This document shows positions 500 through 15,533 of a DNA stretch of 15,533 nt, piece by piece. The DNA is from Caulobacter sp. (lineage in GTDB: Bacteria > Pseudomonadota > Alphaproteobacteria > Caulobacterales > Caulobacteraceae), in NCBI GenBank assembly GCA_014378155.1, contig JACMOF010000329.1:1-15533 (forward strand), given 5' to 3'. The translations under genes were made by a program, and so were the position numbers. Under the pieces are notes generated by a model, which did not search any database, was not told the origin of the DNA, and saw nothing but the letters and a program-made list of their open reading frames with translations. Numbering within the stretch: position 1 is the stretch's first letter; every line of letters starts with the position of its first letter.

Positions 500-585
500 A
501 GGGCGCAGGAATCGGCGGCGATCCTCGCCTCTGGACGCGGCGAGCAACCCGATGCAAACAGGCGCCGCCGCCATAGGAGATGCCC

Positions 586-1746
586 TTGTCCGCCCCAGAG
601 ACCGCCATCGATGTGCCGTTCGCCGACATCCGACGCTGGATGTTCGACCAGGCTCTGCCCTTCTGGGCCGAACAAGGCGTCGATCACGAGAATGGCGGCT
701 TCCTAGAACAACTCGACTTCGAGGGCCGCGACACAGGCGTCGATTTCAAACGTACACGGGTCACCTCCCGCCAGATCTACGTGTTCGCCCACGCCGCTGT
801 GTTGGGCTGGACGCCCGGCAAGGCGCTGGCCGACCAAGGCGTAGCGTTTCTGAAGAAGGCGTGGCTAGGGCCGGACGGCGGCTGGGCCCGTCTTCTCAAC
901 CGTCAAGGCGAGGTGCTCGACACGACGCCGGACCTCTATGACATCGCATTCGCTCTATTTGCCCTGGGTTGGCACGTCCGCGCCACAGGCGACACCGCGT
1001 CCGCCGCCCTTGCCTTGCAAACCCTCGATTTCCTTGACGCACACATGCGTCCCAGCCAGGGTCGTGGCTTCCTGCACGAAAAGCCGGCCAAGGGCAGGCG
1101 GCTGCAGAATCCTCACATGCACCTCATGGAAGCCGCGCTGGCCTGCCTTGAGGCGACCGGCGACGCGCGCTACGCCGTCTTGGCCCAGGAGCTGGAAAGC
1201 CTTTTCCGCGACCGGCTCTTCGACCCCGAAACCCAGACCCTGGCGGAATATTTCGACGACGACTGGAATCGCGCGTCCGGTGACGAAGGCCGGATCGTCG
1301 AGCCGGGCCACCAGCTAGAATGGGCTTGGATATTGGCCAATCTTGAGCGACTGACCGGCGCCAAGACAGGCGACCTGGTCAGAGGCCTCACCGATTTCGC
1401 CGAGCGCCATGGCGTGGATCCTGAGACGGGCGTCACCTTCAACCAGGTTCGGGACGATGGCGTTGTGCTTGATCGCGGCTCGCGCACCTGGCCCAACACC
1501 GAGCGGCTAAAGGGCCATGTGGCGCGTTTCGAACAGTTAGGCGAAGACCCCCGGACGGCCCTGGCCAGTTCCAGCCGCGTGCTGCTAGATCGCTACCTGG
1601 GCTACGGTCGACCGGCGCTCTGGATGGATCATTTTGGTCCAAACGGCGAACATCGCGTGAACTTCGCGCCAGCCTCGACGCTCTACCACGTGTTCCTGGC
1701 CTTCGCCGAGGTTCTGCGGATCGAGCCGCGTCTGGCGGCGCTCTAA
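586..1746 (+). CDS. AGE-family sugar isomerase/epimerase (mannose-6-phosphate isomerase-like)
   Basis: This 386-residue protein has the length and motifs of the N-acylglucosamine 2-epimerase (AGE) family, an (alpha/alpha)6-barrel. Visible motifs are NPHMHLMEA (His177 and His179), EPGHQLEWAWIL (His242), RTWPNTERLKG and ASTLYHVFLAFAE (His368). In characterised members such as YihS, histidines at equivalent places handle proton transfer at the sugar C1/C2. Many bacterial relatives are annotated as mannose-6-phosphate isomerases, which would link fructose 6-phosphate to mannose and GDP-mannose pools; the substrate cannot be settled from sequence. Start choice: AGGAG at 575-579 directly abuts an ATG at 580, but lies 6 nt from the in-frame TTG at 586 (giving MSAPETAID), so TTG is preferred; ATG 580 would add two residues. 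Its stop overlaps the convergent glycosyltransferase stop at 1743-1746. Confidence 0.85.
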   Translation: MSAPETAIDVPFADIRRWMFDQALPFWAEQGVDHENGGFLEQLDFEGRDTGVDFKRTRVTSRQIYVFAHAAVLGWTPGKALADQGVAFLKKAWLGPDGGWARLLNRQGEVLDTTPDLYDIAFALFALGWHVRATGDTASAALALQTLDFLDAHMRPSQGRGFLHEKPAKGRRLQNPHMHLMEAALACLEATGDARYAVLAQELESLFRDRLFDPETQTLAEYFDDDWNRASGDEGRIVEPGHQLEWAWILANLERLTGAKTGDLVRGLTDFAERHGVDPETGVTFNQVRDDGVVLDRGSRTWPNTERLKGHVARFEQLGEDPRTALASSSRVLLDRYLGYGRPALWMDHFGPNGEHRVNFAPASTLYHVFLAFAEVLRIEPRLAAL

Positions 1747-2894: not shown

Positions 2895-3848
2895 TCACAA
2901 ACGCAGGCCGTCGCCGGCTTCGGCGTAGTTCTCCTGGAACCACGCGTAGGTCTTGACCAGGCCTTCGCGCAGGCCCGTGGGGCAGTCGATGCCCATCTCG
3001 CGCATGCGCTTGACGTCGAAGATCTTGATTAGCTGACCCTCGGGCTTGTCGTGGTCCCAATTGATCTTCGCTTCGAGACCCACGACCTCGGCGACGGTTT
3101 CCGCCAACTCGCGAATGGTCGTGGTCGCTCCGTGCGAAAGGTTGACCGGACCGGGCACGTCCGTGCGGTCGAGAAACTGGGGAATGGCCCTGGCCACGTC
3201 TTCGGCATAGACAAAATCGCGCTGGGCGATGCCGCGACCCCAACAGGTGACTTCGCTCACGCCGTTCAGCTTGGCTTCGTGGAAGCGGCGCAGAAACGCC
3301 GGGATCACGTGGCTCTCGCCATTGCGATAGTTGTCGAATTCGCCGAACAGGTTGCCGGGTACCAGAACGGTCGAACTGATGCCATGCTGGGCCTCGTAGG
3401 CCTTGGCGGCGACGATACCCATCTTCTTTGCGGCCGAATAGGCGGCGGAGTCGCCCTGCGGATAGCCTTCCCACATCTGGTCCTCGCTGATCGGCGAGGT
3501 GGCGGTGCCGGGATACGAACAGCCGCCCATGGTGTAGACGATGCGCTTGACGCCGGTTTGGGCGGCAGCCTCGTACATGTTCGAGACCAGGGTGATGTTG
3601 CGCCAGTAGAAGTCGGCGGGCCAAGAGCGATTTGCGCCGATCCCCCCGGAATAGGCCGCCAAGTGGATCACCGCGTCGGGGCGAATTTTGTCGAGTAGCG
3701 CGCGGGTGGCTTCGAACTGCGTGAGATCTCCATCCACGCTGGACGCTCCGACGATCTCCCGGTCAGGATAGGCTTCGCGCAATACCGGCATCATGTGGCG
3801 GCCGAGAAAACCGGTCGCGCCGGTGACAAGAATCTTGCGTTGGGTCAT
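2895..3848 (-). CDS. GDP-L-fucose synthase-like NAD(P)-dependent SDR (epimerase/reductase)
   Basis: This 317-residue extended SDR has GATGFLG (residues 10-16) for dinucleotide binding and HLAAYSGGIGANR. Its active site closely follows GDP-L-fucose synthase (WcaG/Fcl): Cys110 in GGCSYPG, Tyr137 and Lys141 in YSAAKK, and His180 in SHVIPAFLRRFHEA. These line up, each offset by one, with E. coli WcaG Cys109, Tyr136, Lys140 and His179. The WcaG Ser107 position is Gly108 here. GFS-type enzymes epimerise and/or reduce 4-keto GDP-hexoses; relatives in GDP-heptose pathways act as C4 reductases. No GDP-mannose 4,6-dehydratase (gmd) is in the window, so GDP-fucose is not the obvious product. The ATG at 3848 is preceded by GAAAGG six nt away. 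It is probably the first gene of a two-gene minus-strand operon. A degenerate paralogue lies at 9586-10536. Confidence 0.88.
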   Translation of the reverse strand: MTQRKILVTGATGFLGRHMMPVLREAYPDREIVGASSVDGDLTQFEATRALLDKIRPDAVIHLAAYSGGIGANRSWPADFYWRNITLVSNMYEAAAQTGVKRIVYTMGGCSYPGTATSPISEDQMWEGYPQGDSAAYSAAKKMGIVAAKAYEAQHGISSTVLVPGNLFGEFDNYRNGESHVIPAFLRRFHEAKLNGVSEVTCWGRGIAQRDFVYAEDVARAIPQFLDRTDVPGPVNLSHGATTTIRELAETVAEVVGLEAKINWDHDKPEGQLIKIFDVKRMREMGIDCPTGLREGLVKTYAWFQENYAEAGDGLRL

Positions 3849-4002: not shown

Positions 4003-4932
4003 ATGCGCGTACTCATCACCGGAGGCGCCGGCTATATCGGCTCCATCCTCACCCCGACCCTTCTTGAAATGGGGCATGAGGTCACGGTGCTCGATACGTT
4101 CGCGCGTGGCGACACCGCTCTGGCGGCGTGCTGCCAATACGAAGGCTTCACGCCTGTGCGCGGCGACGCTCGCGATGAGCGCTTGCTGGACGAGTTGACC
4201 CCCAAGGCGGACGTAATCATTCCGCTCGCCGCGCTGGTCGGCGCCCCGCTGTGCAAGGAAGATCCGATCGCCGCACAGACGCTCAACCAGGACGCCGTCG
4301 TGGCCCTGGCCAAGCGCAAGGGCGAGGGCCAGATGATGGTGTATCCAACCACCAACTCGGGCTACGGCGTCGGCATCGCCGGTCAGTTCTGCACCGAAGA
4401 GACCCCGCTGAACCCTCTGTCGTTGTATGGCATCACCAAGATGGCCGCTGAAAACGCCGTGCTCGAGCAGGGTGGTGTTTCTTTCCGCCTGGCGACCGTG
4501 TTCGGCATGGCGCCGCGCATGCGGCTAGACCTGCTGGTCAACGACTTCGCTTGGCGCGCGGTCACAGACCGAGCCGTGGTAATCTTCGAAGGCCACTTCA
4601 AGCGCAATTACATCCACATTCGCGACGTCGTGAAGGGCTTCCTGCACGGGATCGAGAACTACGAAACCATGGGCGGCCAAGCCTATAATCTAGGCCTGTC
4701 ATCGGCCAATCTCTCCAAGCTGGAACTGTGCGCCAAAATCCAGGAGCACGTGCCCAACTTCGTGTTCCTGGAAGCGCCTATCGGCGAGGATCCCGACAAG
4801 CGCGACTACATCGTGTCGAACGCAAAGCTCGAAGGAACCGGCTGGACCCCCGACTGGACGCTAGATCGGGGCATCCCCGAACTGCTGCGCGGCTACAAGA
4901 CCATCCGCAACTCGCGCTACGCCAACGTCTGA
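4003..4932 (+). CDS. NAD-dependent SDR, possibly GDP-manno-heptose 4-dehydrogenase-like
   Basis: This 309-residue extended SDR has GGAGYIG (residues 7-13) for NAD binding, PLAALVGAPLCKEDP, a catalytic region TTNSGYG (116-122) and YxxxK as YGITK (Tyr142, Lys146). Further on are RLATVFGMAPRMRLDLLVND and RNYIHIRDVVKGFLHGIENY, and the end is RNSRYANV. From memory, this pattern is very close to C. jejuni Cj1427, which oxidises C4 of GDP-D-glycero-alpha-D-manno-heptose; I could not run an alignment. An ordinary NDP-sugar 4-epimerase or dehydratase remains possible. The ATG at 4003 is chosen because GAGAG at 3991-3995 sits 7 nt upstream; a TTG at 3985 would extend it by six residues across that site. 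It appears monocistronic, with a divergent promoter region upstream and a strong hairpin just after the stop. Confidence 0.85.
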   Translation: MRVLITGGAGYIGSILTPTLLEMGHEVTVLDTFARGDTALAACCQYEGFTPVRGDARDERLLDELTPKADVIIPLAALVGAPLCKEDPIAAQTLNQDAVVALAKRKGEGQMMVYPTTNSGYGVGIAGQFCTEETPLNPLSLYGITKMAAENAVLEQGGVSFRLATVFGMAPRMRLDLLVNDFAWRAVTDRAVVIFEGHFKRNYIHIRDVVKGFLHGIENYETMGGQAYNLGLSSANLSKLELCAKIQEHVPNFVFLEAPIGEDPDKRDYIVSNAKLEGTGWTPDWTLDRGIPELLRGYKTIRNSRYANV

Positions 4933-4937
4933 CCTGC

Positions 4938-4973
4938 AGGGCCGCGATCGGCGCTCACGCCGCTCGCGGCCCT
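4938..4973. terminator. hairpin between convergent genes, probable bidirectional terminator
   Basis: A perfect 10-bp inverted repeat, AGGGCCGCGA (4938-4947) with TCGCGGCCCT (4964-4973), encloses a second 5-bp stem CGGCG/CGCCG (4949-4953, 4958-4962) with loop CTCA. A single T/C mismatch separates the stems. It begins 5 nt after the SDR stop and ends 9 nt before the stop of the convergent gene. The following tract is only weakly T-rich, so it may be an incomplete intrinsic terminator or a 3'-end stabiliser. Confidence 0.6.
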
Positions 4974-4982
4974 TGGTCTCGG

Positions 4983-6068
4983 TCAGAACGCGCTCGCCGC
5001 CGTCTGAAACCGCGCGGTCATCGCAGAGAGCGTGTCGGCCCAGTCGGGCCGCCGTACGCCTCGCGGCGCGGGTGCGATGGCGAACACTTCCGATCCGGCA
5101 TGCAGGATCGACGATATCTTCACCGCGCTTGTCTTGCGGTCGATAACATACAGAAGACTCTCATCGACGTGCAGCGCCTCGCGCTCGATCGGCACCGTAA
5201 CGCCTAAATGTCTCGAACGCCTGCGGTGCGCGCTAGCCCCGACGAAGACGTGCCGGGGCGTAACCATTAGCCCCCTAAGATAGCCGCGCAGGCGCGCCAC
5301 CGGCGCGGTGCCTTCCCCGGGGGTGTGCCGCCAAACCGTCGAGGTGGCGGACTCGCACCACCAGAAGGCCAAACCCTCGGCAATCAGGGAATGAGGCTGC
5401 GCGATCCCTGACACCAGAATTTCGCCGCTCACGCAATCGACGATGAAGCCGCCGCACGCCGATCGCCAACCTGCCCCCGGCTTAACGCCGAACGCCGTGG
5501 CCAGAACGCGCCCCCCCACGACCGCGACCGAATTGACGTGCTGAGTGTCGGCGCCGGTGTCGCTAGCCCGCCACAGGGTCTTGGTTGGTTTGCCGGGGCG
5601 CAGCCAAGCGATCCGATCGTGGCCGGTGTCCGCCACCACCAAGCCCCCCCGCCACGACCTTAGGTCGTGCCCGTCGGCGATCTCGGGCAGGTCCTCAGCC
5701 TGGCTCGGGGCCAGGGTTTCGTCATAGCGCGTCAACCAAGTTCCGCCGCCATAGACCTGTTCCATGGCCAGCATACCACCGGGGACACGGATCAATCCGT
5801 CGGTGCCGTTGAAGGCCGGTCGGCTTGGCACGCCGTGACCCACCCAACGAAAGTAGCCGCTATCAGGATCCAGCACCGCCAGCCCGTGTCCTGCCGGCCA
5901 AGTGTTGCAGAACGAGATTAGGACGCTACGCGACCGCGAATGGGTGACTCGATCAGCAAGAACAAATTCGCTTTCAACTAGGTGACCCGAAAAAACGCGG
6001 CCTTTATCTACCTCAAGAACGGAGGGAATATCAAAGATTGAATCCACAGTGTCTTGCTCTTCACTCAA
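4983..6068 (-). CDS. beta-propeller-like protein, DUF4915/TIGR03032-like
   Basis: This 361-residue protein has no clear catalytic signature. It shows repeated beta-strand-rich blades: GLAVLDPDSGYFRW (about 62-75), GHDLRSWRGGLVVADTGHDR (133-152), QHVNSVAVVGGRVLATAFG (176-194), QPHSLIAEGLAFWWCES (224-240) and LLYVIDRKTSAV near the end. The spaced HD, HxN and PHS elements recall DUF4915/TIGR03032 proteins, which often lie in glycan or sulfated-sugar gene clusters; this assignment is from memory and moderate. No signal peptide or membrane segment is evident, so it is probably cytoplasmic. The start is TTG at 6068 with GAGG five nt upstream. The gene contains two C7 tracts (5511-5517, 5644-5650). 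It is divergent from the large plus-strand operon and convergent with the SDR at 4003-4932. Function is unknown; sugar binding is a guess. Confidence 0.7.
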   Translation of the reverse strand: MSEEQDTVDSIFDIPSVLEVDKGRVFSGHLVESEFVLADRVTHSRSRSVLISFCNTWPAGHGLAVLDPDSGYFRWVGHGVPSRPAFNGTDGLIRVPGGMLAMEQVYGGGTWLTRYDETLAPSQAEDLPEIADGHDLRSWRGGLVVADTGHDRIAWLRPGKPTKTLWRASDTGADTQHVNSVAVVGGRVLATAFGVKPGAGWRSACGGFIVDCVSGEILVSGIAQPHSLIAEGLAFWWCESATSTVWRHTPGEGTAPVARLRGYLRGLMVTPRHVFVGASAHRRRSRHLGVTVPIEREALHVDESLLYVIDRKTSAVKISSILHAGSEVFAIAPAPRGVRRPDWADTLSAMTARFQTAASAF

Positions 6069-6128
6069 AATAGCCTCGTATAGATACTTTTAGGTCAAAC
6101 AAATCCAGGCCAGAATTGCAACCGTCAT

Positions 6129-6157
6129 TTGACGCTCCTAACCATATCGGATAAAGC
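6129..6157 (+). promoter_or_regulatory. possible promoter of the 6187-13107 operon
   Basis: TTGACG (6129-6134), the alphaproteobacterial housekeeping -35 form, is followed after 17 nt by TAAAGC (6152-6157), a weak -10. It lies about 30 nt before the GTG start at 6187, in a 118-nt gap that is AT-rich compared with its surroundings. The gap must also hold the promoter for the divergent gene at 4983-6068, where I see no convincing pair. Confidence 0.4.
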
Positions 6158-6186
6158 GAGCGTCGGTCACGATGTTGGGGGCTTGA

Positions 6187-7305
6187 GTGGCAGAAATCAT
6201 TGGCATTTCAGACGTTAGCGTAGGGTACGGATCGCCGGAGGTGCCTGCGTTGATGGACTCGATCTGCAAGCTGTTCGGCAAGCGCGGCCTGCTCATTGAG
6301 CCCGACGAGATCGCCCGCCCTCCGGTGGAAATGCCGTGGGGTCCCGCATTTGAGCTCAAGCGCGTCTCGTCTGACTATCCGGACCATAGTCCGATGTGGC
6401 AACGCGCATACCTTTCGCAAGCCCTGCGCATGGTGGAAAAATACAACCCAAAGCTTTTGGTGGTTTTCGGCTCCAGCGTCTTCACCAGCCTGATCGGTCT
6501 CAAGCGCCGTCCCCAGCGGATCATCTACCATGCGTACGAATTCATCTCGAACCTCCAGGAAGCCGATATCGACGCGCACCGCCTGATGCTTGCTGACGTC
6601 GACCTGATGGTGACGCCCGACGTCGAACGGCTGGTCTATGACGTGCGCACGGTGCAAACTCAGCCGAAGGTGGCGACCGCGATCTACAATGTCGCCGACG
6701 TCAGTTATCCTGCGGCCGTGCGCAGCCTGCCGGCCGACCAGCGCAACGGCCGGTTTCTCTGGTACGGAACCCTTCACCGCCATCAGGCGCTAGCTGATCA
6801 CTTCACCTCGGAACTGGTTCGCGAGTATCAGTTCGATCTGTTCGGGCGTATCACGGATCCGAACGCCGGCGAGGTGGAAGCCGCCCTGCGCGACGCGCAC
6901 AACATTCGTTATTTTGGCGTGGCCCCTGCGGAAGAGTTGAATGCGCGCCGGGCCGAGAACATCTTTTCCTTCGTGTGGTGGAATCCAGAGATTTCGCCGG
7001 GACATTACTATCTCCCCTCGAACCGTTTCTTCACCTCGATCCAGGCCGGCGTGCCGCCGATTTGCGCGCCGCACCCTCAGTGCGTTGAACTGGTCGAGCG
7101 CTATGGCTGTGGCATGATCATGGAAGATTGGTCCCTGTCAGCTTTCGCCCGGGCCCTGGCGCGGGCGCAGCGGATCTATGGCACCAGCGCCTATGCGGAT
7201 TTGGTCCGAAACTGCGAGATCGCGGCTCGCGACGAACTTAACTGGCCACGCCAGTTCGCTCGCGTCGAACCGCATATCCGCCAAGCCCTGGCCGGGGTGC
7301 TGTGA
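6187..7305 (+). CDS. GT-B-like glycosyltransferase
   Basis: This 372-residue protein looks like a GT-B glycosyltransferase. The first half contains LLVVFGSSVFTSLIG (90-104), RIIYHAYEF (111-119) and DLMVTPDVERLVYD (139-152), the usual 'sentinel' segment before the linker. The second domain starts at GRFLWYGTLHRHQALADH (188-205). It then has YQFDLFGRI (214-222), NIRYFGVAPAEELNARRA (239-256) and PSNRFFTSIQAGVPPICAP (277-295), where donor phosphates and ribose are normally held. It has no signal peptide or membrane helix. An in-frame TGA at 6184-6186 sits immediately before the GTG at 6187, so no earlier start is possible; a G-rich run just upstream is a weak ribosome site. It is the first gene of the long plus-strand operon. 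Donor and acceptor are unknown. Confidence 0.8.
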   Translation: MAEIIGISDVSVGYGSPEVPALMDSICKLFGKRGLLIEPDEIARPPVEMPWGPAFELKRVSSDYPDHSPMWQRAYLSQALRMVEKYNPKLLVVFGSSVFTSLIGLKRRPQRIIYHAYEFISNLQEADIDAHRLMLADVDLMVTPDVERLVYDVRTVQTQPKVATAIYNVADVSYPAAVRSLPADQRNGRFLWYGTLHRHQALADHFTSELVREYQFDLFGRITDPNAGEVEAALRDAHNIRYFGVAPAEELNARRAENIFSFVWWNPEISPGHYYLPSNRFFTSIQAGVPPICAPHPQCVELVERYGCGMIMEDWSLSAFARALARAQRIYGTSAYADLVRNCEIAARDELNWPRQFARVEPHIRQALAGVL

Positions 7306-7342
7306 TGACCACGTTTGAAACGATTGGCCGGATGGGCTCGCA

Positions 7343-9544
7343 ATGCCGCGGATAATCTTCACCGACAAGCTCATGAGGTCGGGCGGCGGCCACCATCTGG
7401 AATACTGCCTGAGGTTGGTCGAGGCGTTCGTCGCCCAAGGCTATGAACCCGTCTTTCTCGCCAATCGCGAGTTCAAGGGGGCGCGCCCGCCCGGCCTGAA
7501 GGCCGTCATTGAGTTTGATTTCAATCGTGTGATCTTGGGCCAGGAGATGCGCGCCAAGCGTAAGCTTGAGCGTGAAAAGGACAGGCGTCGCCACACTCGG
7601 CGGATGCGGGAACGCTTTTATTTCTCACGTCTTGGCATCGCTCACCTGGCCCTGAACGAAATGCGGCGGGGCGCTTCCCTGCAGTCGGAACGCGGCCTGA
7701 TCGTTGGCGCCTTTCTGATCGGTGCAGCCGCCTTGGCCGTGCGCCTCATCGGACTCGTCGTCTGGGTGATGACTTGGCCCTATCGCGTCGCGATGCGTGG
7801 CCTGCAGTGGCTGTCTGCCCGCGGTCGCCGGACGCGCCTCGCCAACGCACTGCGCGCCCGCTGGGAAGTGCTGACGGCGCGCCTGGCGGTGAAGGAACCC
7901 CTCAGGCTCCTTCGCGCGGTCTTACAGTCACGGGACGGGCCGGAACAGGCGCTGGTCGCCTCGATCGGACGCGCCCTCACGCGCCTTGAGCCGACAGAGA
8001 ACGACATCATCTTCTGCACCACCACGGTGGTGTCTGACCTCAACATCTATCTGAAGGTGCTGGAAGCCTTCCCCAGGACGCGCAAACTCCACTGGAACTT
8101 CGTTTTCCGGGAACCGATCTTCCTCAACCAGGGGCCGAGCTACGTTGTCGGCCAGAACCAGCGTAGCCTGCGAACCAGGCTGATCTCCTTCGACAGCCGG
8201 AAAGACGTGCGGACAGGTTGGTGGGTCGATACTGACGAACTCGCCGAACAGTACTCGCACCTGGGTGTTTTCCAGTTCCAGGCCCTGCCGATCCCCATGC
8301 CCAAGGCCTTATCGGACTTTGTTGACGATCCGCTCCCGGACGACCGCCCGCTGACGATCGGCTATCTAGGCGACGCGCGGCCCGAAAAGGGCTATTGCGA
8401 CCTCTCGAACGCCATGCGGGACCTCTCGGCGACCCATCGTTACTGGCTGCGCCAACTCTATCGGATGGCCGACTTGGACGAGAGCGAGGCGCGAGCTCTT
8501 CTCCTGCCCAACCGTCCCTCGCCCGATGCGCGCGACGCGATGCTCAAGCGGCGAACCGCCCATCGCTACGAAATCGACCGCGCGAAGCTGAGGTCTGACC
8601 CGACCGACAATCTCAAGCACGCTCCGCGGTTCGCGATGCTTGCCCAAAGCAATTTTAACGTGCCCGACGGCATCGATCAGACCCGCTCGGAGCGTTACCG
8701 CTTGATGGCGCAAGACGACGTCGGCGTGAAGCTGATCCTCTCGCCGCCCAGTTCGGCCGAATATGTCGCGAACGTGAGACGCAGCGATCTCTTCATGCTG
8801 AACTATCGGCATCCACTCTATCACGCGGGCAGCTCGGGCGTGTTTGCCGAGGCTATCATGGCTGGCAGGCCGGTCCTGGTCAGCGACGACACCTGGGGTG
8901 GCCGGCGCCTGCGCACGTCTCTCGAATATGTTACCCATCTCAAGCAATTAACCGTGGACCACCAGTCCATCGAGATCGAGATCGCCGCGTCAAAGCATTC
9001 GTCGTACGGCCTGACCTGGCGAGTCCTGCCCAGAACGGTCAGCCACCTTGTTTCAGTCTGCGACTTCGCGCAGCGCGCGGTCACTGATCAGTTGGCCTGG
9101 GTCGCGGAGTTCCGCACCGTCGACGGAACTGTCATCCTTCGCCGTCGCCTCCTGTGCAGCCGCCAGGGCGCCGCCGTCGCCATCGTGGAAGTCCCCGAAC
9201 AAGCCGTCCTGGTGCGGTCGCGTATTGAGCGCTTGAACCCGCTGTTGCAGCCCAGCGACTGGTCCGTGCGCACCTTCGGCCTTGACCTGCGCGCGTTCGA
9301 CGCCCCATTGGCGGCGGTCGGCATGGTGGTCAGCGATCCGGAAGAAATCGCGCCGGCCCTCGCCGAGATCGGTCGCCACTATGCCCACTACAGGCAAGGG
9401 GCGGCGAGCTTCGCCAGATCATGGGCCGCCGAGAACGACGCCAATCTTCTCGCCAAGCAGGTGGTGGATCACGCCCGCGACCTGCTCCTGCCAGCGGCCC
9501 CAGAGCCCGCGGCGGAGCCCAAGCTGCTCGATAACGCCGCCTGA
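7343..9544 (+). CDS. large membrane-associated GT-B glycosyltransferase with an inserted domain
   Basis: This 733-residue protein is about twice the usual GT-B length. It opens with a Rossmann-like start containing SGGGHHLEYCLRL (13-25), followed by a very basic stretch (about 68-92, rich in Arg/Lys). A hydrophobic segment at about 118-145 could span or enter the membrane and is flanked by more basic residues. The C-terminal GT domain begins at LTIGYLGDARPEKGY and includes MLNYRHPLYHAGSSGVFAEA (485-504) and GRPVLVSDDTWGG (about 507-519). Instead of finishing normally, it then carries about 130 residues of beta-rich sequence (roughly 525-655) before the expected final part, VGMVVSDPEEIAPALAEIG. 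A probable role is sugar transfer on a lipid-linked glycan at the inner membrane. The ATG is at 7343, 37 nt after the upstream stop, with only a weak ribosome site. Confidence 0.8.
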   Translation: MPRIIFTDKLMRSGGGHHLEYCLRLVEAFVAQGYEPVFLANREFKGARPPGLKAVIEFDFNRVILGQEMRAKRKLEREKDRRRHTRRMRERFYFSRLGIAHLALNEMRRGASLQSERGLIVGAFLIGAAALAVRLIGLVVWVMTWPYRVAMRGLQWLSARGRRTRLANALRARWEVLTARLAVKEPLRLLRAVLQSRDGPEQALVASIGRALTRLEPTENDIIFCTTTVVSDLNIYLKVLEAFPRTRKLHWNFVFREPIFLNQGPSYVVGQNQRSLRTRLISFDSRKDVRTGWWVDTDELAEQYSHLGVFQFQALPIPMPKALSDFVDDPLPDDRPLTIGYLGDARPEKGYCDLSNAMRDLSATHRYWLRQLYRMADLDESEARALLLPNRPSPDARDAMLKRRTAHRYEIDRAKLRSDPTDNLKHAPRFAMLAQSNFNVPDGIDQTRSERYRLMAQDDVGVKLILSPPSSAEYVANVRRSDLFMLNYRHPLYHAGSSGVFAEAIMAGRPVLVSDDTWGGRRLRTSLEYVTHLKQLTVDHQSIEIEIAASKHSSYGLTWRVLPRTVSHLVSVCDFAQRAVTDQLAWVAEFRTVDGTVILRRRLLCSRQGAAVAIVEVPEQAVLVRSRIERLNPLLQPSDWSVRTFGLDLRAFDAPLAAVGMVVSDPEEIAPALAEIGRHYAHYRQGAASFARSWAAENDANLLAKQVVDHARDLLLPAAPEPAAEPKLLDNAA

Positions 9545-9585
9545 TCCGCGTCCCGCCCAGCAATCGCCGTCCAGCGGATATCCAG

Positions 9586-10536
9586 ATGACCCATCAAACG
9601 ATCCTCGTCACCGGCGCTACCGGCCTGCTCGGCCGGCACGTGGTGCCCCTCCTCGAGCAGCGTTTTTCAGATCGGACCATTATGGCGGTCGGTTCGGAGG
9701 CAGGGGACCTGTCGCGCCTCGACCATGCGCTGGGCCTGATCCGCGATACCCGGCCCGACTGCATCGTGCACCTCGCGGCTTACGGAGGCGGTCAAGAGTT
9801 CAACCGGGCCTGGACCGCCGACTGTCTGTTTCAGAACGCGTCGATGACCTTGAATCTGTATGAGGCCGCCAGCCAAAACGGGGTCAAGAAGATCGTCTAT
9901 CCGGTGTCCTTCGACAGTTACCCTGCGCGGTGCCTCTCCCCCGTGGCGGAAAGCCAGCTGTGGGCCGGCTACAACCCGGCCAACTACGCCGGTCACGCCA
10001 TTGGCAAGCGCCTCGGCGCTGCCGCAGCCGACGTCTATCGCTACCAATATGGAATGGACAGCGCGGTCCTGATCCTGGGCGAACTTTATGGTGAACAAGA
10101 CAATTTCCGCGCCCAGGAAACCGCCACGGTCGCCTCGATCATCCGCTGCATGACGGAGGCGGAACGGTCCGGCTTACGCAAGATCAGCCTCCCGGCCTCC
10201 GACGACGTCCTGTACGATCTGGCCTATGCCGGCGACGTCGCCGCCTTGATCCCCTGGTTCATTGATAATGACAGCCCGCGCCCGGTGAATGTTTCACAGG
10301 GCGTCGGCTATAGCGTCAGCGACATCATTGAAGCGGTGCGCGAAGCGACGGGCTATCGCGTCGAGGTCGACCTGACGGAGCCGTCGGTCGACGCGCTCTC
10401 GCCGCACCTGATGAACGTCAGCGCGTTAGCCGAGCTGGGCCTTTCATGCCCAACGCCCCTCAAGACTGGCATCAAGCGCACCGTTCGGTGGTATCTAGAC
10501 AACTTGGATGCTCCAAAACATGGCTTCCGCGCATAA
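9586..10536 (+). CDS. GFS-like SDR paralogue with substituted active site
   Basis: This 316-residue extended SDR is clearly paralogous to the protein at 2895-3848; the two align without gaps through about residue 180. The NAD-binding GATGLLG (10-16) and Lys141 are kept. At the GFS catalytic positions, Cys110 becomes Asp (SFDSYP), Tyr137 becomes His (GHAIGK, codon CAC at 9994-9996) and His180 becomes Ala. Position 108 is Ser here, whereas the paralogue has Gly. Tyr134, three residues before His137, might substitute. The reading frame is intact with ordinary codon use, so it is not a simple pseudogene. It could be an altered-specificity reductase/epimerase, a binding protein or a partner subunit. 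It is the third gene of the operon, 41 nt after the glycosyltransferase and 36 nt before the kinase. A moderate ribosome site (GCGGATATCCAG) precedes the ATG. Confidence 0.85.
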   Translation: MTHQTILVTGATGLLGRHVVPLLEQRFSDRTIMAVGSEAGDLSRLDHALGLIRDTRPDCIVHLAAYGGGQEFNRAWTADCLFQNASMTLNLYEAASQNGVKKIVYPVSFDSYPARCLSPVAESQLWAGYNPANYAGHAIGKRLGAAAADVYRYQYGMDSAVLILGELYGEQDNFRAQETATVASIIRCMTEAERSGLRKISLPASDDVLYDLAYAGDVAALIPWFIDNDSPRPVNVSQGVGYSVSDIIEAVREATGYRVEVDLTEPSVDALSPHLMNVSALAELGLSCPTPLKTGIKRTVRWYLDNLDAPKHGFRA

Positions 10537-10572
10537 TTTAGCGACACGGACATCTGATCTGGGAGTCTTTGG

Positions 10573-11643
10573 TTGATTATCGTCAGAACACCGCTGCGCA
10601 TCTCCTTCTTCGGAGGCGGCACCGATCATCCGAGCTGGTTCAAGACTTACGGCCCCGGCGCCGTGCTGTCGACAACCATAGACAAGTACGTTTACATCAC
10701 GCTGCGCCACCTGCCGGCGGTATTTGATTTCAACTACCGCGTCTCCTGGCGAATGCTGGAGCAGGCCGCGACGATCGCTGAAATTCAACATCCGGTCGTC
10801 CGTGCGGTGCTGACCCACTATACCGACCCGGACGACGCCGGATACGAGATCGCCTATAATGCTGATCTTCCGGCCCGGTCCGGTCTGGGTTCGTCATCCG
10901 CCTTCACCGTTGCGGCCTTGCACGCCCTGATGCGCCACCAAGGCAAGACGGTCTCCAAAATGAGTCTCGCCCAAGAAGCCATTCGGGTAGAGCAAGAATA
11001 TCTTCAAGAACCAGTCGGCTCCCAAGACCAGACGGCCGTCGCCTTCGGCGGCTTGAACCGCATCGACTTCGAAGCCAACGGAGATCTAGGCGTGCGTCGC
11101 CTGGAGCTGTCCCTGAACCGGCAGATGGAGCTGGAAAGCCGCCTAATGATGTTTTTCACCGGCTTCACTCGTGACGCCAGCGCTATTGAAATAGCCAAGG
11201 TCCAGACCTTTGGCGATCAGCGCGAGCGGATGGAGAAGCTGTACAAGATGGTCGGCGATGGCGAGGCCATCCTGCTCGACGAAGGGTCCCCGATAGACGA
11301 TTTTGGTCGGCTGCTACACGAGGCTTGGGTGGAGAAGCGCGGCCTGTCGGCCGGCGTATCGAGCGGGCCGATCGACCGGATGTACAACACCGCCCTGCAG
11401 GCCGGAGCCCTGGGCGGAAAGATTCTCGGGGCGGGGGGCGGCGGCTTCATGCTGTTGTTTGTTCCGCCTGAGGCGCAGCCTGACGTGCTGTTCGCCATGT
11501 CCAACCTCAAGCTCGACGATGTGCGCAGGCCAATCCACATCCCCTTTCGCTTCGAGCGCGACGGTAGCCAAGTCGTGCTGCACCAGCCCCAACTGACGGC
11601 AAACTACGAGCGGATGCCGATCCGGCCCGCGCGCGAGGCCTGA
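10573..11643 (+). CDS. hddA: GHMP-family kinase, D-glycero-D-manno-heptose 7-phosphate kinase-like
   Basis: This 356-residue GHMP kinase opens with RTPLRISFFGGGTDHPSW (5-22), the typical HddA-type start. It carries the ATP-binding GHMP motif at Pro100-Ala110 (PARSGLGSSSA) and a C-terminal glycine-rich segment, GKILGAGGGGFMLLF (about 280-294). HddA phosphorylates D-glycero-alpha-D-manno-heptose 7-phosphate at C1, the step before GDP activation by HddC; related family members act on other sugars such as fucose, so the substrate is inferred. The start is TTG at 10573 with GGGAG at 10561-10565, 7 nt upstream; no ATG lies nearby. The stop overlaps the next start by one base (TGATG), indicating translational coupling to the RmlC-like epimerase. 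GmhA, GmhB and HddC are not in the window. Confidence 0.85.
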   Translation: MIIVRTPLRISFFGGGTDHPSWFKTYGPGAVLSTTIDKYVYITLRHLPAVFDFNYRVSWRMLEQAATIAEIQHPVVRAVLTHYTDPDDAGYEIAYNADLPARSGLGSSSAFTVAALHALMRHQGKTVSKMSLAQEAIRVEQEYLQEPVGSQDQTAVAFGGLNRIDFEANGDLGVRRLELSLNRQMELESRLMMFFTGFTRDASAIEIAKVQTFGDQRERMEKLYKMVGDGEAILLDEGSPIDDFGRLLHEAWVEKRGLSAGVSSGPIDRMYNTALQAGALGGKILGAGGGGFMLLFVPPEAQPDVLFAMSNLKLDDVRRPIHIPFRFERDGSQVVLHQPQLTANYERMPIRPAREA

Positions 11644-12194
11644 TGGCCAACGCCCTCGAAGCCGCGGGCGCTACTCGCCTGGCTGTCGTCGGGGCTTGGT
11701 TGTTTCGCCCCACGCGTTTCGAAGACAGTCGAGGTTGGACCAGCGAAGTCATCACCGAGGCTCTCTGGCGAACGGCGGGTTGGCGGGGCTTTGTCCAGGA
11801 AAACCAGAACCACGCGGTGCGCAAGGGTACGGTGCGAGGCTTTCACTATCAGGCCGGCGCCAGCGCCCAGGCGCGGATCTTGCGTGTGGTACAGGGCGCG
11901 ACCTATTCGGTGGTGCTGGATTCGCGGCCCGAGTCTTCGACCTATCGCCGCTGGGACGCGGCCCTGCTTACGGCGCGGGACGGCGACGTGATGTACGTGC
12001 CACCCGGATGCGCCCATGCGGTCCAGACGGTCGAGGACGACACTTCGACAAGCTGGATGACAGACGCGCCGTTCGACCGTTCAGCCGCGGCGGGCGTGTT
12101 GTGGAACGATCCCGCCCTGGCCATTCCCTGGCCACTGGGCGACGCGGCCTTGGTCGGCGACCGCGACGCGCGCTTCCCACCGGCAGCGCCGTGA
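11643..12194 (+). CDS. RmlC-like sugar 3,5-epimerase with Tyr-to-Trp substitution
   Basis: This 183-residue cupin has the usual RmlC length and order: RFEDSRGW, VRGFHYQ (catalytic-type His68, with Arg65), ILRVVQGATYSVVLD, MYVPPGCAHAVQ, VLWNDPALAIPWPL and DRDARFP (Asp175, the likely dyad partner of His68). The conserved Tyr that normally sits about 70 residues after the His is Trp138 here (TGG at 12054-12056) in an ungapped stretch. RmlC enzymes epimerise C3 and C5 of 4-keto NDP-sugars. No rmlA, rmlB or rmlD is present, and the coupled upstream gene is an HddA-like kinase, so a GDP-4-keto-heptose is a likelier substrate than dTDP-rhamnose precursors (inference). Without the Tyr acid it may epimerise only one carbon or use another donor. 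The start codon overlaps the kinase stop by one base. Confidence 0.85.
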   Translation: MANALEAAGATRLAVVGAWLFRPTRFEDSRGWTSEVITEALWRTAGWRGFVQENQNHAVRKGTVRGFHYQAGASAQARILRVVQGATYSVVLDSRPESSTYRRWDAALLTARDGDVMYVPPGCAHAVQTVEDDTSTSWMTDAPFDRSAAAGVLWNDPALAIPWPLGDAALVGDRDARFPPAAP

Positions 12195-12210
12195 CCTTGG
12201 AGCCTTTCTC

Positions 12211-13107
12211 GTGACCGAAGTCCATTTCCGCCTCGCCCGCGACGAGCCGGGCGACGCGAAGGCCTTCCGCGCGCTCTCCAACAGCCTATACGCGCGAAAG
12301 ATCGACGAACGGTACTATCGTTGGCAGTTCTTCGACTGTCCCCACGCCCCGTTGCTGATGACCGGCTGGGCCGGCGAGCGCATGGTGGCCGCCTATGGCG
12401 TTCACGTGATCTCTAGTGGGGTCGAGGTCGCCGGCATGAGCCTGGACATCATGATCGCCGACGACCATCAGGGCTGCGGCCTCATCGCCCCTCTCGCCCA
12501 AGCCGCGATCGATGAGGCCCGTCGGCGCGGCGCCCTTCGGCTGGCGGTGATCGGCAACGCCCGGGCTCGCGATGCCATGAGCCGTCGTTTGGGCTGGAAG
12601 ACCTGGCAGGTGTTGGCCGACTGGACCCGGCTCACCGCCGGGACAGACTCGGCGCCGGCCGAGCCCGTGGCGCGCCCTCCTCCGGCGTCGTTGGCGCCCG
12701 GCGCGCGAACCTTCTATCCGCGGGACGAAGCGACCTTGGCCTGGCGCACGGAACAAAGCCCGCGCTACGACTATACGTGGCTAAGGGCTGGCCCCCCGGA
12801 GGCTCCACAAGGCTGGTCCGTGATCAAACTGTTCCGCGATCCGGTCAGCGGCGAGGGATTCGGCGACATCGTTGGCCTGTTCCTCTCGCAAGTCGGCGGT
12901 TCTCCAGAACCCATTCTCCAGGCGACGCTTGCCTGGCTGGACGCTCAAAACGTCGGCCAGGCTGCCTTTTATCCCGCCGGCCTCGCCGAAAACGCTGCCG
13001 CCAAGGCGCTCGGGTTCACCGCGTCCCGTCGCGAGCGCTACCTTTGCGGCGAGGGTGACGCCCCCCCCGGATTGAACATTGGAATGCTGGACGTCGACGT
13101 CTATTAG
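12211..13107 (+). CDS. GNAT-family N-acetyltransferase
   Basis: This 298-residue protein has one recognisable GNAT domain in its first half. An N-terminal segment ARKIDERYYRWQFFDCP resembles polysaccharide-cluster GNATs. The core strands LLMTGWAGERMVAAYGVHV and MSLDIMIADDH precede the acetyl-CoA pyrophosphate motif QGCGLIAPLAQ (87-97), then AVIGNARARDAMSRRLGW. The C-terminal half (from about 145) is less recognisable and may be a degenerate second GNAT-like fold. It may acylate an amino sugar; the nearby aminotransferase at 14354-15451 could make such a sugar (inference). The GTG at 12211 has GGAG 8 nt upstream and lies 16 nt after the previous stop; it closes the operon. A C8 tract (13061-13068) falls 13 codons before the stop. 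Confidence 0.8.
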   Translation: MTEVHFRLARDEPGDAKAFRALSNSLYARKIDERYYRWQFFDCPHAPLLMTGWAGERMVAAYGVHVISSGVEVAGMSLDIMIADDHQGCGLIAPLAQAAIDEARRRGALRLAVIGNARARDAMSRRLGWKTWQVLADWTRLTAGTDSAPAEPVARPPPASLAPGARTFYPRDEATLAWRTEQSPRYDYTWLRAGPPEAPQGWSVIKLFRDPVSGEGFGDIVGLFLSQVGGSPEPILQATLAWLDAQNVGQAAFYPAGLAENAAAKALGFTASRRERYLCGEGDAPPGLNIGMLDVDVY

Positions 13108-13551: not shown

Positions 13552-14349
13552 TTACGTCTTGGAGACTCGCATATACAGGCGGCCGATTGAGAAGAAACCC
13601 AGGCTTTCAAACGTGTAGCCGGACGTCGGCGCCCATTCGAAAAAGGCCTTGGTCTCACCCTTTTCCGGATTGAAGGTCCAATCGTCGAAAACCAGGATCG
13701 CGCCGTCAACCAATTTTCCGCTCAGGTAGGACAGGGTATCGACGGCGGATTCGTACAGGTCTCCGTCGACGCGGGCATAGGCGATCTGGTCCACTTGGGC
13801 TTCGGGCAAGCCGATCGTGTCGCAGAACCAACCTTTGATGAGCTTGAGGTGCGGCCGCTCGGCCAGGCGGAGACGCTGAGAAACCTGGGTCAGCGGCGCA
13901 TTATATTCGCCTTCCGCCCAGCCCATGCCTTCATCGGCTTCCGTCGGGGCTGGAAGACCCTCGAAGCTGTCGAAACCCAACACGGGACGGGCCATGCCCA
14001 TCCCGTCCATGGTGTTCATCAGGAACTCCAACCAACGGCCCTCGAAGACGCCGAACTCGACGATAGCGCCGGGGACCTGCTCTTCATGCAATTGCTTCAG
14101 CAGAGCCGCAGCGTATTCGCGCTCCACCACACACATGGCATCGTTGATGCGAGCGCCCCACATCGTACCGATGGGGAAACTCGAAGCTGGCCATGTATTC
14201 GGGGCAAAGGTGCAGCCCGTCATTAGACTGGAGGCGATTTGTTCGTAACTCATACTGGTATTGCTCCAAACGATTGGATCCGAATGACCGGGCGGATTCC
14301 GAAATTTTTGCCGCAAAAGCTCTAGGCGATGGGAGAAAGATTTGCCCAA
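13552..14349 (-). CDS. TylF/MycF-type SAM-dependent sugar O-methyltransferase
   Basis: This 265-residue class I methyltransferase has SAM motif I as AIVEFGVFEGRW (95-106), then VLGFDSFEGLPAP (123-135), the family's characteristic post-motif. Metal/substrate-site acids follow in ARVDGDLYES (Asp195, Asp197) and LVFDDW (Asp222, Asp223). The family includes macrocin O-methyltransferase and many polysaccharide-cluster members that methylate sugar hydroxyls with Mg2+. Substrate here is unknown. Start is uncertain: TTG at 14349 lies 4 nt after the aminotransferase stop and keeps 32 further residues; ATG at 14253 (MSYEQIASS) has GGAG 10 nt upstream and would give 233 residues. The gene is probably co-transcribed with the aminotransferase and ends near a structured element. 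Its codon use is slightly less GC-rich at the N-terminal end. Confidence 0.85.
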   Translation of the reverse strand: MGKSFSHRLELLRQKFRNPPGHSDPIVWSNTSMSYEQIASSLMTGCTFAPNTWPASSFPIGTMWGARINDAMCVVEREYAAALLKQLHEEQVPGAIVEFGVFEGRWLEFLMNTMDGMGMARPVLGFDSFEGLPAPTEADEGMGWAEGEYNAPLTQVSQRLRLAERPHLKLIKGWFCDTIGLPEAQVDQIAYARVDGDLYESAVDTLSYLSGKLVDGAILVFDDWTFNPEKGETKAFFEWAPTSGYTFESLGFFSIGRLYMRVSKT

Positions 14350-14353
14350 GAGC

Positions 14354-15451
14354 TTACCACCCCGACTTTACGGATTCCACGACCTTAGCCAAGTCCTCGT
14401 CACTGAGGTCTTCGTGAATCGGAATATGGATCTGTTCGGCGTCAAAACGGGCAGCGCCTTCAAGATCTTCACGCAATCCGCCCAAGATCGGGTGCTTATC
14501 GATGCGGCGATCCACGACGGTGATCGGGACGTCGCGCGACTTCATCGCCCGCCCGAAGTCTTCACGTCGCTCGACCAGGATCGGGAACAGCCAGAACCCC
14601 CCCTCGCTGTCGGCACGGCGGCGAATGTGGCGCAGGCCAGCGACCTGAGCCAGTTCGTGCAGATAGGTTGCCCCGATCTCGCGGCGGCGGCTCAGTCGGG
14701 CTGGGTGGTCAGGCAAATTCCCGACGCCCAAGGCAGCGGCGATATTGTTCATGTGGTACTTGTAGCCGAGGATGTCGATCGCCACGCTGCGCTCGCCGAT
14801 GTCAGTGACCGGCGTGCGGGTCTTGTCGATCCCGAACCAGCGCCGGCGGGTGAGCAGGATGGCGTCCTCCTCGGACTGGACGGCGATCGCGCCGCCATCT
14901 CCCGTGGTCATCCCCTTGATCGCCTGGAACGAGAAACAGGTCAGGCGCGACAGCGTACCGACCATCCGGCCTTTGTAGACCGCTCCGAATGCGTGAGCCG
15001 CATCCTCGATAACGGCGATCCCCGCTTCGGTGGCGATCGCGTTCAACGTATCCATGTCGCAAGGCTCGCCGCCCCAGTGCACCGGAATGACGGCCTTGGT
15101 GCGCGCCGTGATCTTGCGCCGCACCGAGGCCGGGTCGATATTTCCCGTCTCAGGGTCGATATCGGCGAAAACCGGGGTCGCCCCCGCATGCAGGACAACC
15201 AGGCCGGTGGCCACAAAGGTTTGAGGCGGAATGATCACCTCGTCACCCGGTCCAATTCCCAGATGGATCAACGCCAGATGTAGCGCCGAGGTCGCGCTGT
15301 TGGTGGTCACGACGTGCGGGGCGCCGAGATAATCAACTAGATCCGCCTCGAACTCCTTGACGACCGCCCCCTCGTTTAGGAAGCCGGACCGAAGAACCTG
15401 GACGACCCGCTCAATTGCTTCATCTGACACTTTTGTAGTGAAGAAATTCAT
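14354..15451 (-). CDS. DegT/DnrJ/EryC1/StrS-family PLP-dependent sugar aminotransferase
   Basis: This 365-residue fold-type I aminotransferase starts at MNFFTTKVSDEAIERVVQVL and RSGFLNEG, the normal DegT family beginning. It has TTNSATSALHLAL (49-61), GDEVIIPPQTFVATG (69-83), the PLP-contacting IEDAAHAFGA (148-157; Asp150, His153) and the Schiff-base region FSFQAIKGMTTGDGG (173-187; Lys179). Family members transaminate 3- or 4-keto NDP-sugars to amino sugars (for example GDP-perosamine synthase); the keto-sugar here is not determined. The ATG at 15451 is chosen over the in-frame ATG at 15508 because it matches the family start; neither has a strong ribosome site. It leads a probable operon with the methyltransferase. 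Confidence 0.88.
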   Translation of the reverse strand: MNFFTTKVSDEAIERVVQVLRSGFLNEGAVVKEFEADLVDYLGAPHVVTTNSATSALHLALIHLGIGPGDEVIIPPQTFVATGLVVLHAGATPVFADIDPETGNIDPASVRRKITARTKAVIPVHWGGEPCDMDTLNAIATEAGIAVIEDAAHAFGAVYKGRMVGTLSRLTCFSFQAIKGMTTGDGGAIAVQSEEDAILLTRRRWFGIDKTRTPVTDIGERSVAIDILGYKYHMNNIAAALGVGNLPDHPARLSRRREIGATYLHELAQVAGLRHIRRRADSEGGFWLFPILVERREDFGRAMKSRDVPITVVDRRIDKHPILGGLREDLEGAARFDAEQIHIPIHEDLSDEDLAKVVESVKSGW

Positions 15452-15533
15452 GGCACGATCCACTGGCGCGCCGGCTTGTCCGGCCTGGGTTTCGTGCACG
15501 TGCCACATCGCGGACGACGTGACAATCGGTGGC

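Follow-up and report, generated by a model that had tools for sequence, protein, structure and literature searches.

The window analysed here, the 15,533 nt of contig JACMOF010000329.1 from a Caulobacter sp. genome, carries a surface-glycan gene cluster that is a variant of the GDP-heptose pathway. The core of this pathway is well supported; new are the proposals that a protein of the N-acylglucosamine 2-epimerase (AGE) family replaces the isomerase GmhA and that an LhgO-like flavoprotein recycles L-2-hydroxyglutarate, the by-product of the sugar oxidation, both being good, testable proposals of which each could fail. That the cluster is a surface-glycan GDP-heptose pathway with such a GmhA substitute and by-product recycling we consider probable. 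The more specific combination, an AGE-fold replacement of GmhA plus a dedicated L-2-hydroxyglutarate oxidase that closes a 2-oxoglutarate cycle with the Cj1427-type dehydrogenase, is put forward tentatively, as a serious possibility that falls short of probable. The corresponding set in Campylobacter jejuni comprises GmhA, HddA, GmhB, HddC, Cj1427, Cj1428 and Cj1430, as given in PMC10680097. Most of the proteins described below score under the strict NCBIfam equivalog cut-offs, which speaks against reading their functions directly from the matches, and the protein names used here are therefore best-family names.

The product of 4003-4932 (forward strand) is a relative of the GDP-manno-heptose C4-dehydrogenase Cj1427. 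A PDB search returned 6vo6 and 6vo8 at an E-value of 7.4e-119, with the next structure at 2e-21, and alignment with 6vo6 gave 180 identical residues out of 307 over the full length (58.6%), confirming the Cj1427-like 4-dehydrogenase of the short-chain dehydrogenase/reductase (SDR) family that an earlier note on this DNA had placed here. We take 6vo6 to be Cj1427; its PDB label reads only putative sugar-nucleotide epimerase/dehydratase. According to PMC10680097, Cj1427 contains tightly bound NADH that is oxidised by 2-oxoglutarate, yielding L-2-hydroxyglutarate. By similarity, the window protein is predicted to oxidise GDP-heptose with 2-oxoglutarate as acceptor.

The second anchor of the cluster is the GHMP kinase encoded at 10573-11643 (forward strand). 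Its best family is HddA (NF049969, 138 bits), ahead of mevalonate kinase (81 bits) and a fucokinase fusion (76 bits), the curated HddA cut-off of 600 bits not being reached. In the PDB its best chains are heptose and putative sugar kinases (4usk, 4usm, 3k85 and 4n3o, 121-132 bits), with fucokinases at 55-58 bits. By both family and structure scores the kinase thus groups with HddA and not with fucokinase, as the earlier note had supposed.

We asked how regularly these genes occur together in two samples. In the class sample, Cj1427-type genes were present at E ≤ 1e-80 in 27 of 387 genomes, and the surrounding region was fetched for 24 of them, leaving out G000 (the source genome), G061 and G065. 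An HddA-type kinase lies no more than 5 kb from the Cj1427-type gene in 23 of these 24 loci and about 13 kb off in the remaining one (G428); the regions hold HddC in 18, GmhA in 4 and GmhB in 3 cases. The second sample consists of the best 80 of at least 572 matching stretches in named genomes, many on short contigs, and contains HddA in 54, HddC in 56, GmhB in 31 and GmhA in 17 loci. Hence the Cj1427-type gene is linked to GDP-heptose pathway genes. Relatives with at least 64% identity to the window's protein are found well outside Campylobacter, in alphaproteobacteria, Verrucomicrobia, cyanobacteria and Chloroflexi (taxonomy as in the records, many of which are metagenome-assembled genomes). 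We also observed that a sugar C-methyltransferase family (the L057 member has PF08421 and PF08484) occurs in 28 of 81 loci, i.e. the window plus the 80, for instance in L025, L026, L030, L033 and L057; such genes adjoining Cj1427-type genes suggest branched heptoses.

In G000, an assembly of 598 contigs that is 85% complete and belongs to the same genus as genome G005, the window makes up contig C102 in full. As the window's right end (15216-15533) overlaps another contig of the same genome, C415, over 318 nt with 4 mismatches, we took C415 as its continuation; the mismatches could reflect strain variation at the contig ends. Read along, C415 encodes the beginning of the window's DegT protein, then a Wzm-like permease and a Wzt-like ATPase, then an HddC-GmhB fusion and finally an LhgO-like flavoprotein. 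The earlier note had listed GmhA, GmhB and HddC as missing and recommended a search of the flanking genome. None of the three lies in the window; HddC and GmhB are present as the one fused gene on C415, and gmhA was found neither in G000 nor in four relatives. The true start of the fusion is probably 76 residues inside the longest frame. Its N-terminal HddC half reaches 97 bits with NF049965 (cut-off 300) and 103 bits with a mannose-1-phosphate guanylyltransferase model. The GmhB half matches PRK08942 best (142.6 bits) and exceeds the cut-off of TIGR01656, the HAD-IIIA/histidinol-ppas domain (119.8 bits, cut-off 84.15), but misses the curated GmhB cut-offs of 178 and 149.6 with 142.6 and 130.8 bits.

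Two further genomes hold comparable sets on a single contig. In Brevundimonas aveniformis, a named isolate, the order Wzm, Wzt, HddC-GmhB, LhgO recurs, and the same contig adds an AGE protein of the window's type (termed AGE-2 below), a Cj1427-type protein (81% identity to the window's), HddA (41%, with HddA as its best-scoring model at 137 bits), a GDP-fucose-synthase-like SDR (GFS1, 70%), DegT (63%) and an RmlC-like protein. In G005 one block, headed by transketolase, comprises LhgO-like, HddC-GmhB, AGE-2, HddA, DegT, ABC transporter and Cj1427-type genes. Sequence and gene context together establish the families and the linkage of the Cj1427-type, HddA, HddC-GmhB, LhgO-like, AGE-2 and transketolase genes.

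The enzyme for the first step was sought in G000 and in G005, G061, G065 and G070, four 100% complete relatives that share core genes with it. In G000 there was no TIGR00441 match at E ≤ 0.001, and a search with PF13580 (SIS_2, the Pfam family of GmhA) gave just two matches below the cut-off, with E-values of 0.006 and 0.04; none of the four relatives had a PF13580 match at 1e-5. That GmhA was merely missed through incompleteness of the assembly is countered by the four complete genomes that also lack SIS_2, and could hold for G000 taken by itself. Since gmhA was not found in any of the five, another isomerase is needed for the first step.

A candidate is encoded at the left end of the window. 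The AGE-family protein of 580-1746 (forward strand; PF07221, 215.8 bits, cut-off 23.4) follows the end of a transketolase gene (2-499, forward strand), which is cut by the contig end, encodes the C-terminal part (PF22613, 130 bits) and shares 78% identity with the complete transketolase of G005 over 155 residues. The transketolase gene ends 80 nt before the AGE gene with no terminator-like site between them; both are relevant to the pathway and were absent from the gene list of the earlier note. We searched 45 genomes (set 1), 30 positive for Cj1427 and 15 negative ones of the same genus or family. Exactly G000, G005, G061, G065 and G070 encode a protein with at least 50% identity to the window AGE, and SIS_2 is missing in all five, compared with 0 of the 25 other Cj1427-positive genomes. 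In the remaining genomes of this genus and family a housekeeping AGE, AGE-1, is present at 35-41% identity; the AGE-1 of G000 adjoins a manC gene scoring over the curated cut-off for mannose-1-phosphate guanylyltransferase/phosphomannose isomerase. In the same genome, on contig C494 (locus L172, 9142-12973), AGE-1 and manC stand together with a gene of the fructose-6-phosphate aldolase/transaldolase family and a stand-alone GmhB-like HAD gene, the latter having no evident heptose partner.

A FastTree phylogeny grouped 14 AGE-2 sequences together and apart from AGE-1. Window and housekeeping AGEs have 40 conserved positions in common, and the WPxTE motif contains Asn in 14 of 14 AGE-2 sequences as against Gln in 22 of 25 others; the shorter side chain of Asn could make room for a seventh carbon. 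AGE-2 also differs from AGE-1 in its neighbours, with HddC-GmhB next to it in 10 of 14 loci and manC in 2. The Pmi of Rhizobium meliloti is an AGE-type (type III) phosphomannose isomerase of PF07221. The proposed activity resembles that of this enzyme, which belongs to the same Pfam family and interconverts a phosphorylated ketose and a manno-aldose, the same reaction one carbon shorter.

The distribution of the isomerases over the HddC-GmhB fusion loci points in the same direction. Among 35 such loci GmhA is present in 16, an AGE in 13, neither in 6 and both in none. The AGE profile threshold used here cannot separate AGE-1 from AGE-2, the 35 include loci selected for AGE presence (L096-L099, L164 and L169), and for L096 and L169 AGE-2 was scored as present though it stands elsewhere in the same cluster (window and L017, respectively), outside the locus proper. 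Of the 13 AGE loci, 10 have AGE-2 immediately beside the fusion and no GmhA in the neighbourhood; in the window genome and in B. aveniformis AGE-2 stands at another place of the cluster, and L221 has an AGE-1-type protein next to the fusion. The exclusivity of GmhA and AGE has a hypergeometric probability of 2e-5, or 0.01 if the 35 loci are collapsed to about 20 lineages (a rough count), neither value being corrected for ancestry; in the 80-locus subset alone, with 21 fusion loci, 11 GmhA and 6 AGE, it is 0.004. From this gene context we propose that AGE-2 is a sedoheptulose-7-phosphate isomerase replacing GmhA. A literature search, which did not cover subscription journals, found no published work on an AGE-family sedoheptulose isomerase.

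Several results weigh against this assignment. Some of the SIS_2 matches in set 1 are weak (E-values of 1e-6 to 1e-8 in G204, G249 and G270) or belong to other SIS proteins and may not be GmhA. SIS_2 is also missing in 8 of 10 Cj1427-negative Caulobacter, and since Caulobacter usually lacks it anyway the pattern is partly one of ancestry. In a second set, the genomes of 49 of the 80 named loci, picked to favour alphaproteobacteria, 6 of 9 AGE-2 genomes and 7 of 40 others lack SIS_2. There G508, G510, G512 and G529 have a Cj1427-type gene and neither AGE-2 nor SIS_2, G508 carrying HddA, HddC and LhgO as well, and G492, G496 and G498 have AGE-2 plus a SIS_2 protein. A genome-wide rule of GmhA or AGE-2, which holds in set 1 and breaks in set 2, is thus too strong. 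The AGE-1-type protein of the fusion locus L221, in place of AGE-2, adds to these points. In addition, AGE-1 was not found in 6 of the 14 AGE-2 genomes (G070, G485, G486, G498, G501 and G518), and in G485 and G486 (L016 and L017) AGE-2 is divergent from a manC-like gene, which fits a mannose-6-phosphate isomerase. On the latter two findings, AGE-2 might act in mannose metabolism as well, or exclusively, or AGE-1 might cover both functions. As a separate observation, HddA, the HddC-GmhB fusion and the AGE-1-type protein of L221 (G134:C14) lie together and are encoded on the same strand; that genome has no strong Cj1427 gene.

Much of this would be expected if the heptose route is real and AGE-2 serves GDP-mannose as an ordinary type III phosphomannose isomerase, with another, unrecognised enzyme isomerising sedoheptulose-7-phosphate. 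The precedent of R. meliloti Pmi, the AGE-2 genomes without AGE-1, the manC-like neighbours in L016 and L017 and the four Cj1427-type genomes with neither isomerase all agree with it. However, G000 has a separate AGE-1 beside manC, and AGE-1 is present in another 7 of the 14 AGE-2 genomes; AGE-2 adjoins HddC-GmhB in 10 loci and never stands alongside GmhA, and it was found in none of the 15 Cj1427-negative genomes in set 1. We give this explanation a real but minority chance and retain the replacement of GmhA by AGE-2 as our proposal.

The second proposal concerns L-2-hydroxyglutarate. In Pseudomonas, the NAD-dependent sugar-nucleotide dehydrogenase of the WbpB/WbpE pair is recycled by 2-oxoglutarate; its sugar and enzyme family differ from those of the window cluster, and we know of no LhgO partner for that pathway. 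Escherichia coli LhgO (YgaF) belongs to an FAD oxidase family and is said in PMC3234257 to recover 2-oxoglutarate reduced by other enzymes. Unlike it, the gene on C415 is linked to a sugar-nucleotide pathway from which L-2-hydroxyglutarate is expected to arise, and its product scores under the LhgO cut-off.

LhgO-family genes are present in 15 of the 80 named loci, for which a rough Poisson estimate, assuming 1.1 copies per 4 Mb and with loci that are not independent, gives 1e-19. In 9 of the 15 (L054, L060, L066, L072, L074, L075, L084, L085 and L089, that of L084 being a fragment at a contig end) the gene runs on the same strand as the Cj1427-type gene and ends shortly ahead of it, and these nine loci belong to Verrucomicrobia and cyanobacteria according to the records. 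In clusters of the Caulobacterales type LhgO adjoins HddC(-GmhB) in C415, G005, G070, G486 and G508. G000 and G005 each have a second genomic copy; the 15 Cj1427-negative genomes of their family have one copy in 11, none in 3 and two in 1 case. The C415 protein is 52% identical to its paralogue on C176 and 64-65% identical to the cluster copies of G005 and B. aveniformis. A control set of 28 HddA loci, selected for lacking a strong Cj1427 gene although two of them hold weaker Cj1427-like genes, contained no LhgO. The linkage, 16 of 104 as against 0 of 26 loci, gives a Fisher probability of 0.02 with ancestry ignored. This gene context is consistent with an LhgO-like protein that may recycle the L-2-hydroxyglutarate made by the Cj1427-type enzyme; the literature search, limited as above, found no paper tying LhgO to a heptose pathway.

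Here, too, there is contrary evidence. Just 1 of the 24 class-sample loci has LhgO at a distance of up to about 10 kb from the Cj1427-type gene, and among the 30 Cj1427-positive genomes it lies within 20 kb only in G000, G005, G070 and G326 and is not found at all in 6. With the LhgO model NF008726 (cut-off 299) the C415 and B. aveniformis proteins reach 180 and 198 bits. Most genomes searched carry LhgO somewhere (42 of 53), which together with the single class-sample case rules out proximity to Cj1427 as a general rule. The LhgO-like gene might accordingly have nothing to do with Cj1427 chemistry and its product oxidise another 2-hydroxy acid or a sugar, for which the low scores, the single linked class-sample locus and the single unlinked copies in G025, G061 and G065 would speak. 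Against this, LhgO immediately precedes the Cj1427-type gene in Verrucomicrobia and cyanobacteria, where the one protein tested (L054) is far over the cut-off with 549.6 bits, and it is absent from the 28 control loci. We regard an unrelated LhgO as unlikely, if not markedly so, and keep the recycling of L-2-hydroxyglutarate as the proposed role.

A more radical possibility is that the entire set handles hexoses, the AGE protein making mannose-6-phosphate, kinase and fusion converting it to GDP-mannose via a 1,6-bisphosphate, and the Cj1427-type enzyme producing GDP-4-keto-mannose. Mannose and D-glycero-D-manno-heptose are alike in their C2-C5 stereochemistry, and the HddC half scores slightly better with the mannose-1-phosphate guanylyltransferase model (103 versus 97 bits); yet G000 already holds manC beside AGE-1, the best matches of the kinase are heptose kinases, GmhA occurs in loci that have this kinase and fusion, and transketolase adjoins AGE-2, all of which makes a hexose pathway improbable. 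Salvage or synthesis of GDP-fucose by a fucokinase and GDP-fucose synthases, to which the two other SDRs of the window are closest, is highly improbable and was rejected on the kinase scores, as fucokinase models and structures score far under HddA and the genes scanned in the window and on C415 included no recognisable gmd or fucose-1-phosphate guanylyltransferase. For rmlABD and gmd the search covered the window, where none was the best model of any gene scanned, in keeping with the earlier note.

For the later steps, two GDP-fucose-synthase (GFS)-like SDRs and an RmlC-like protein had been named before, and all three are open frames with these families as best match. GFS1 (2895-3848, reverse strand; NF047922, 254 bits) and the divergent GFS2 (9586-10536, forward strand; 144 bits) both remain under the cut-off of 500. 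GFS1, which has the 70% identical relative in B. aveniformis mentioned above, keeps C109, H179, Y136, K140 and R187, with S107 replaced by Gly, and four linked relatives (B. aveniformis, L041, L042 and L053) show the same pattern. Because Cys109/His179 and Tyr136/Lys140 are kept, GFS1 is predicted to epimerise C3/C5 and reduce C4. In C. jejuni MlghC and DdahC, Tyr and Thr take the position of the Cys kept in GFS1.

The active site of GFS2 is altered, with Y136 changed to His, C109 to Asp and H179 lost while S107 and K140 are kept, and from this pattern GFS2 is possibly a pseudoenzyme. Loss of Tyr136 is no proof of inactivity, since MlghC lacks that Tyr too. The gene, its catalytic residues degenerate, is retained between a probable glycosyltransferase gene and HddA.

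The RmlC-like cupin (11643-12194, forward strand; TIGR01221, 122 bits, cut-off 155.75) was compared in an alignment with 11 relatives, 4 close and 7 more distant. It keeps the His, has Arg instead of Lys and Trp instead of Tyr, and all 4 close relatives agree with it in this. The spacings from the His are 10, 70 and 107, in line with H62/K72/Y132/D169 in Salmonella RmlC numbering. For the catalytic roles of these residues we follow PMC7949155. The Cj1428/Cj1430-type equivalents of the earlier note thus agree with our results in family and depart from them in the active sites, the RmlC-like protein having its catalytic Tyr and Lys replaced by Trp and Arg, and GFS1 keeping its Cys/His pair.

The DegT sugar aminotransferase (14354-15508, reverse strand; PF01041, 339 bits), whose start region overlaps C415, reaches 278 bits with the PseC model (cut-off 423.5) and 222 bits with PDB entry 4xau versus 186-189 bits with perosamine synthases. 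It keeps the lysine in the motif SFQAIK, which we take to be the pyridoxal phosphate lysine, and would yield a 4-amino-heptose if the 4-keto sugar is its substrate. In many related clusters (L019, L020, L023, L029, L039, L097-L099 and others) HddA is followed by a DegT gene whose product has an N-terminal extension of about 100 residues, a hint of 4-amino-heptose; a CBS domain in these proteins was not borne out by Pfam, which leaves the N-terminal extension only.

Kinase, RmlC-like protein and GFS2 are encoded in a tight run of six genes on the forward strand (6187-13107) with gaps of -1 to 41 nt. It opens with a probable glycosyltransferase (6187-7305; 61% identical relative in B. aveniformis), followed by a large one (7343-9544; 43% identical relative), both named by context as no family matched, and closes with a GNAT-family acetyltransferase (12211-13107; PF00583, 25 bits, cut-off 20.7). 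A third probable glycosyltransferase, also assigned by context, is an open frame on the reverse strand (1743-2882) with no Pfam or NCBIfam match. The reverse strand further encodes a TylF-type O-methyltransferase (13552-14349; PF05711, 90 bits) and a DUF4915/TIGR03032-like protein (4983-6068; PF16261, 65 bits), whose gene and the Cj1427-type gene converge with their 3' ends, as does its counterpart in L016 (10918-11421) with the Cj1427-type gene there.

The pathway that we infer would run as follows, the substrates and products, above all those of AGE-2 and the LhgO-like protein, being predictions. Transketolase would provide sedoheptulose-7-phosphate, which AGE-2 would isomerise in place of GmhA; HddA would phosphorylate C1, the GmhB half of the fusion strip the 7-phosphate and the HddC half add guanosine monophosphate. 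The Cj1427-type enzyme would then oxidise C4, passing the electrons to 2-oxoglutarate to give L-2-hydroxyglutarate, from which the LhgO-like flavoprotein would regenerate 2-oxoglutarate. GFS1 may epimerise and reduce the 4-keto sugar to the predicted GDP-D-glycero-beta-L-galacto-heptose, the heptose analogue of GDP-L-fucose, or, alternatively, the DegT enzyme may aminate it, and the glycosyltransferases and the Wzm/Wzt-like ABC transporter would build and export the glycan.

The cluster shares with the C. jejuni GDP-heptose system an HddA-type kinase, HddC and GmhB functions, a Cj1427-type C4-dehydrogenase, a GFS-like reductase and an RmlC-like epimerase. It differs in that HddC and GmhB are fused, no GmhA was found, AGE-2, transketolase and LhgO-like genes are linked, the RmlC-like protein lacks the catalytic Tyr and Lys, and GFS1 retains the epimerase Cys/His pair. 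The C. jejuni-like route of the earlier note therefore stands in its kinase, dehydrogenase, HddC-GmhB and the HddA linkage of 23 in 24 loci, and lacks its GmhA. Absence of gmhA or hddC, or a kinase outside the HddA group, had been named as grounds for doubting it: gmhA was not found, whereas hddC is present and the kinase is HddA-like.

GmhA, regarded as the enzyme through which bacteria enter heptose synthesis, is pursued as an inhibitor target (PMC11056994). A second, unrelated isomerase would change the way in which genomes that make heptose are identified. The linkage of LhgO touches on the fate of the one L-2-hydroxyglutarate formed per oxidised sugar in Cj1427 chemistry and, if true, sugar oxidation would in effect be driven by the LhgO-like oxidase's own electron acceptor.

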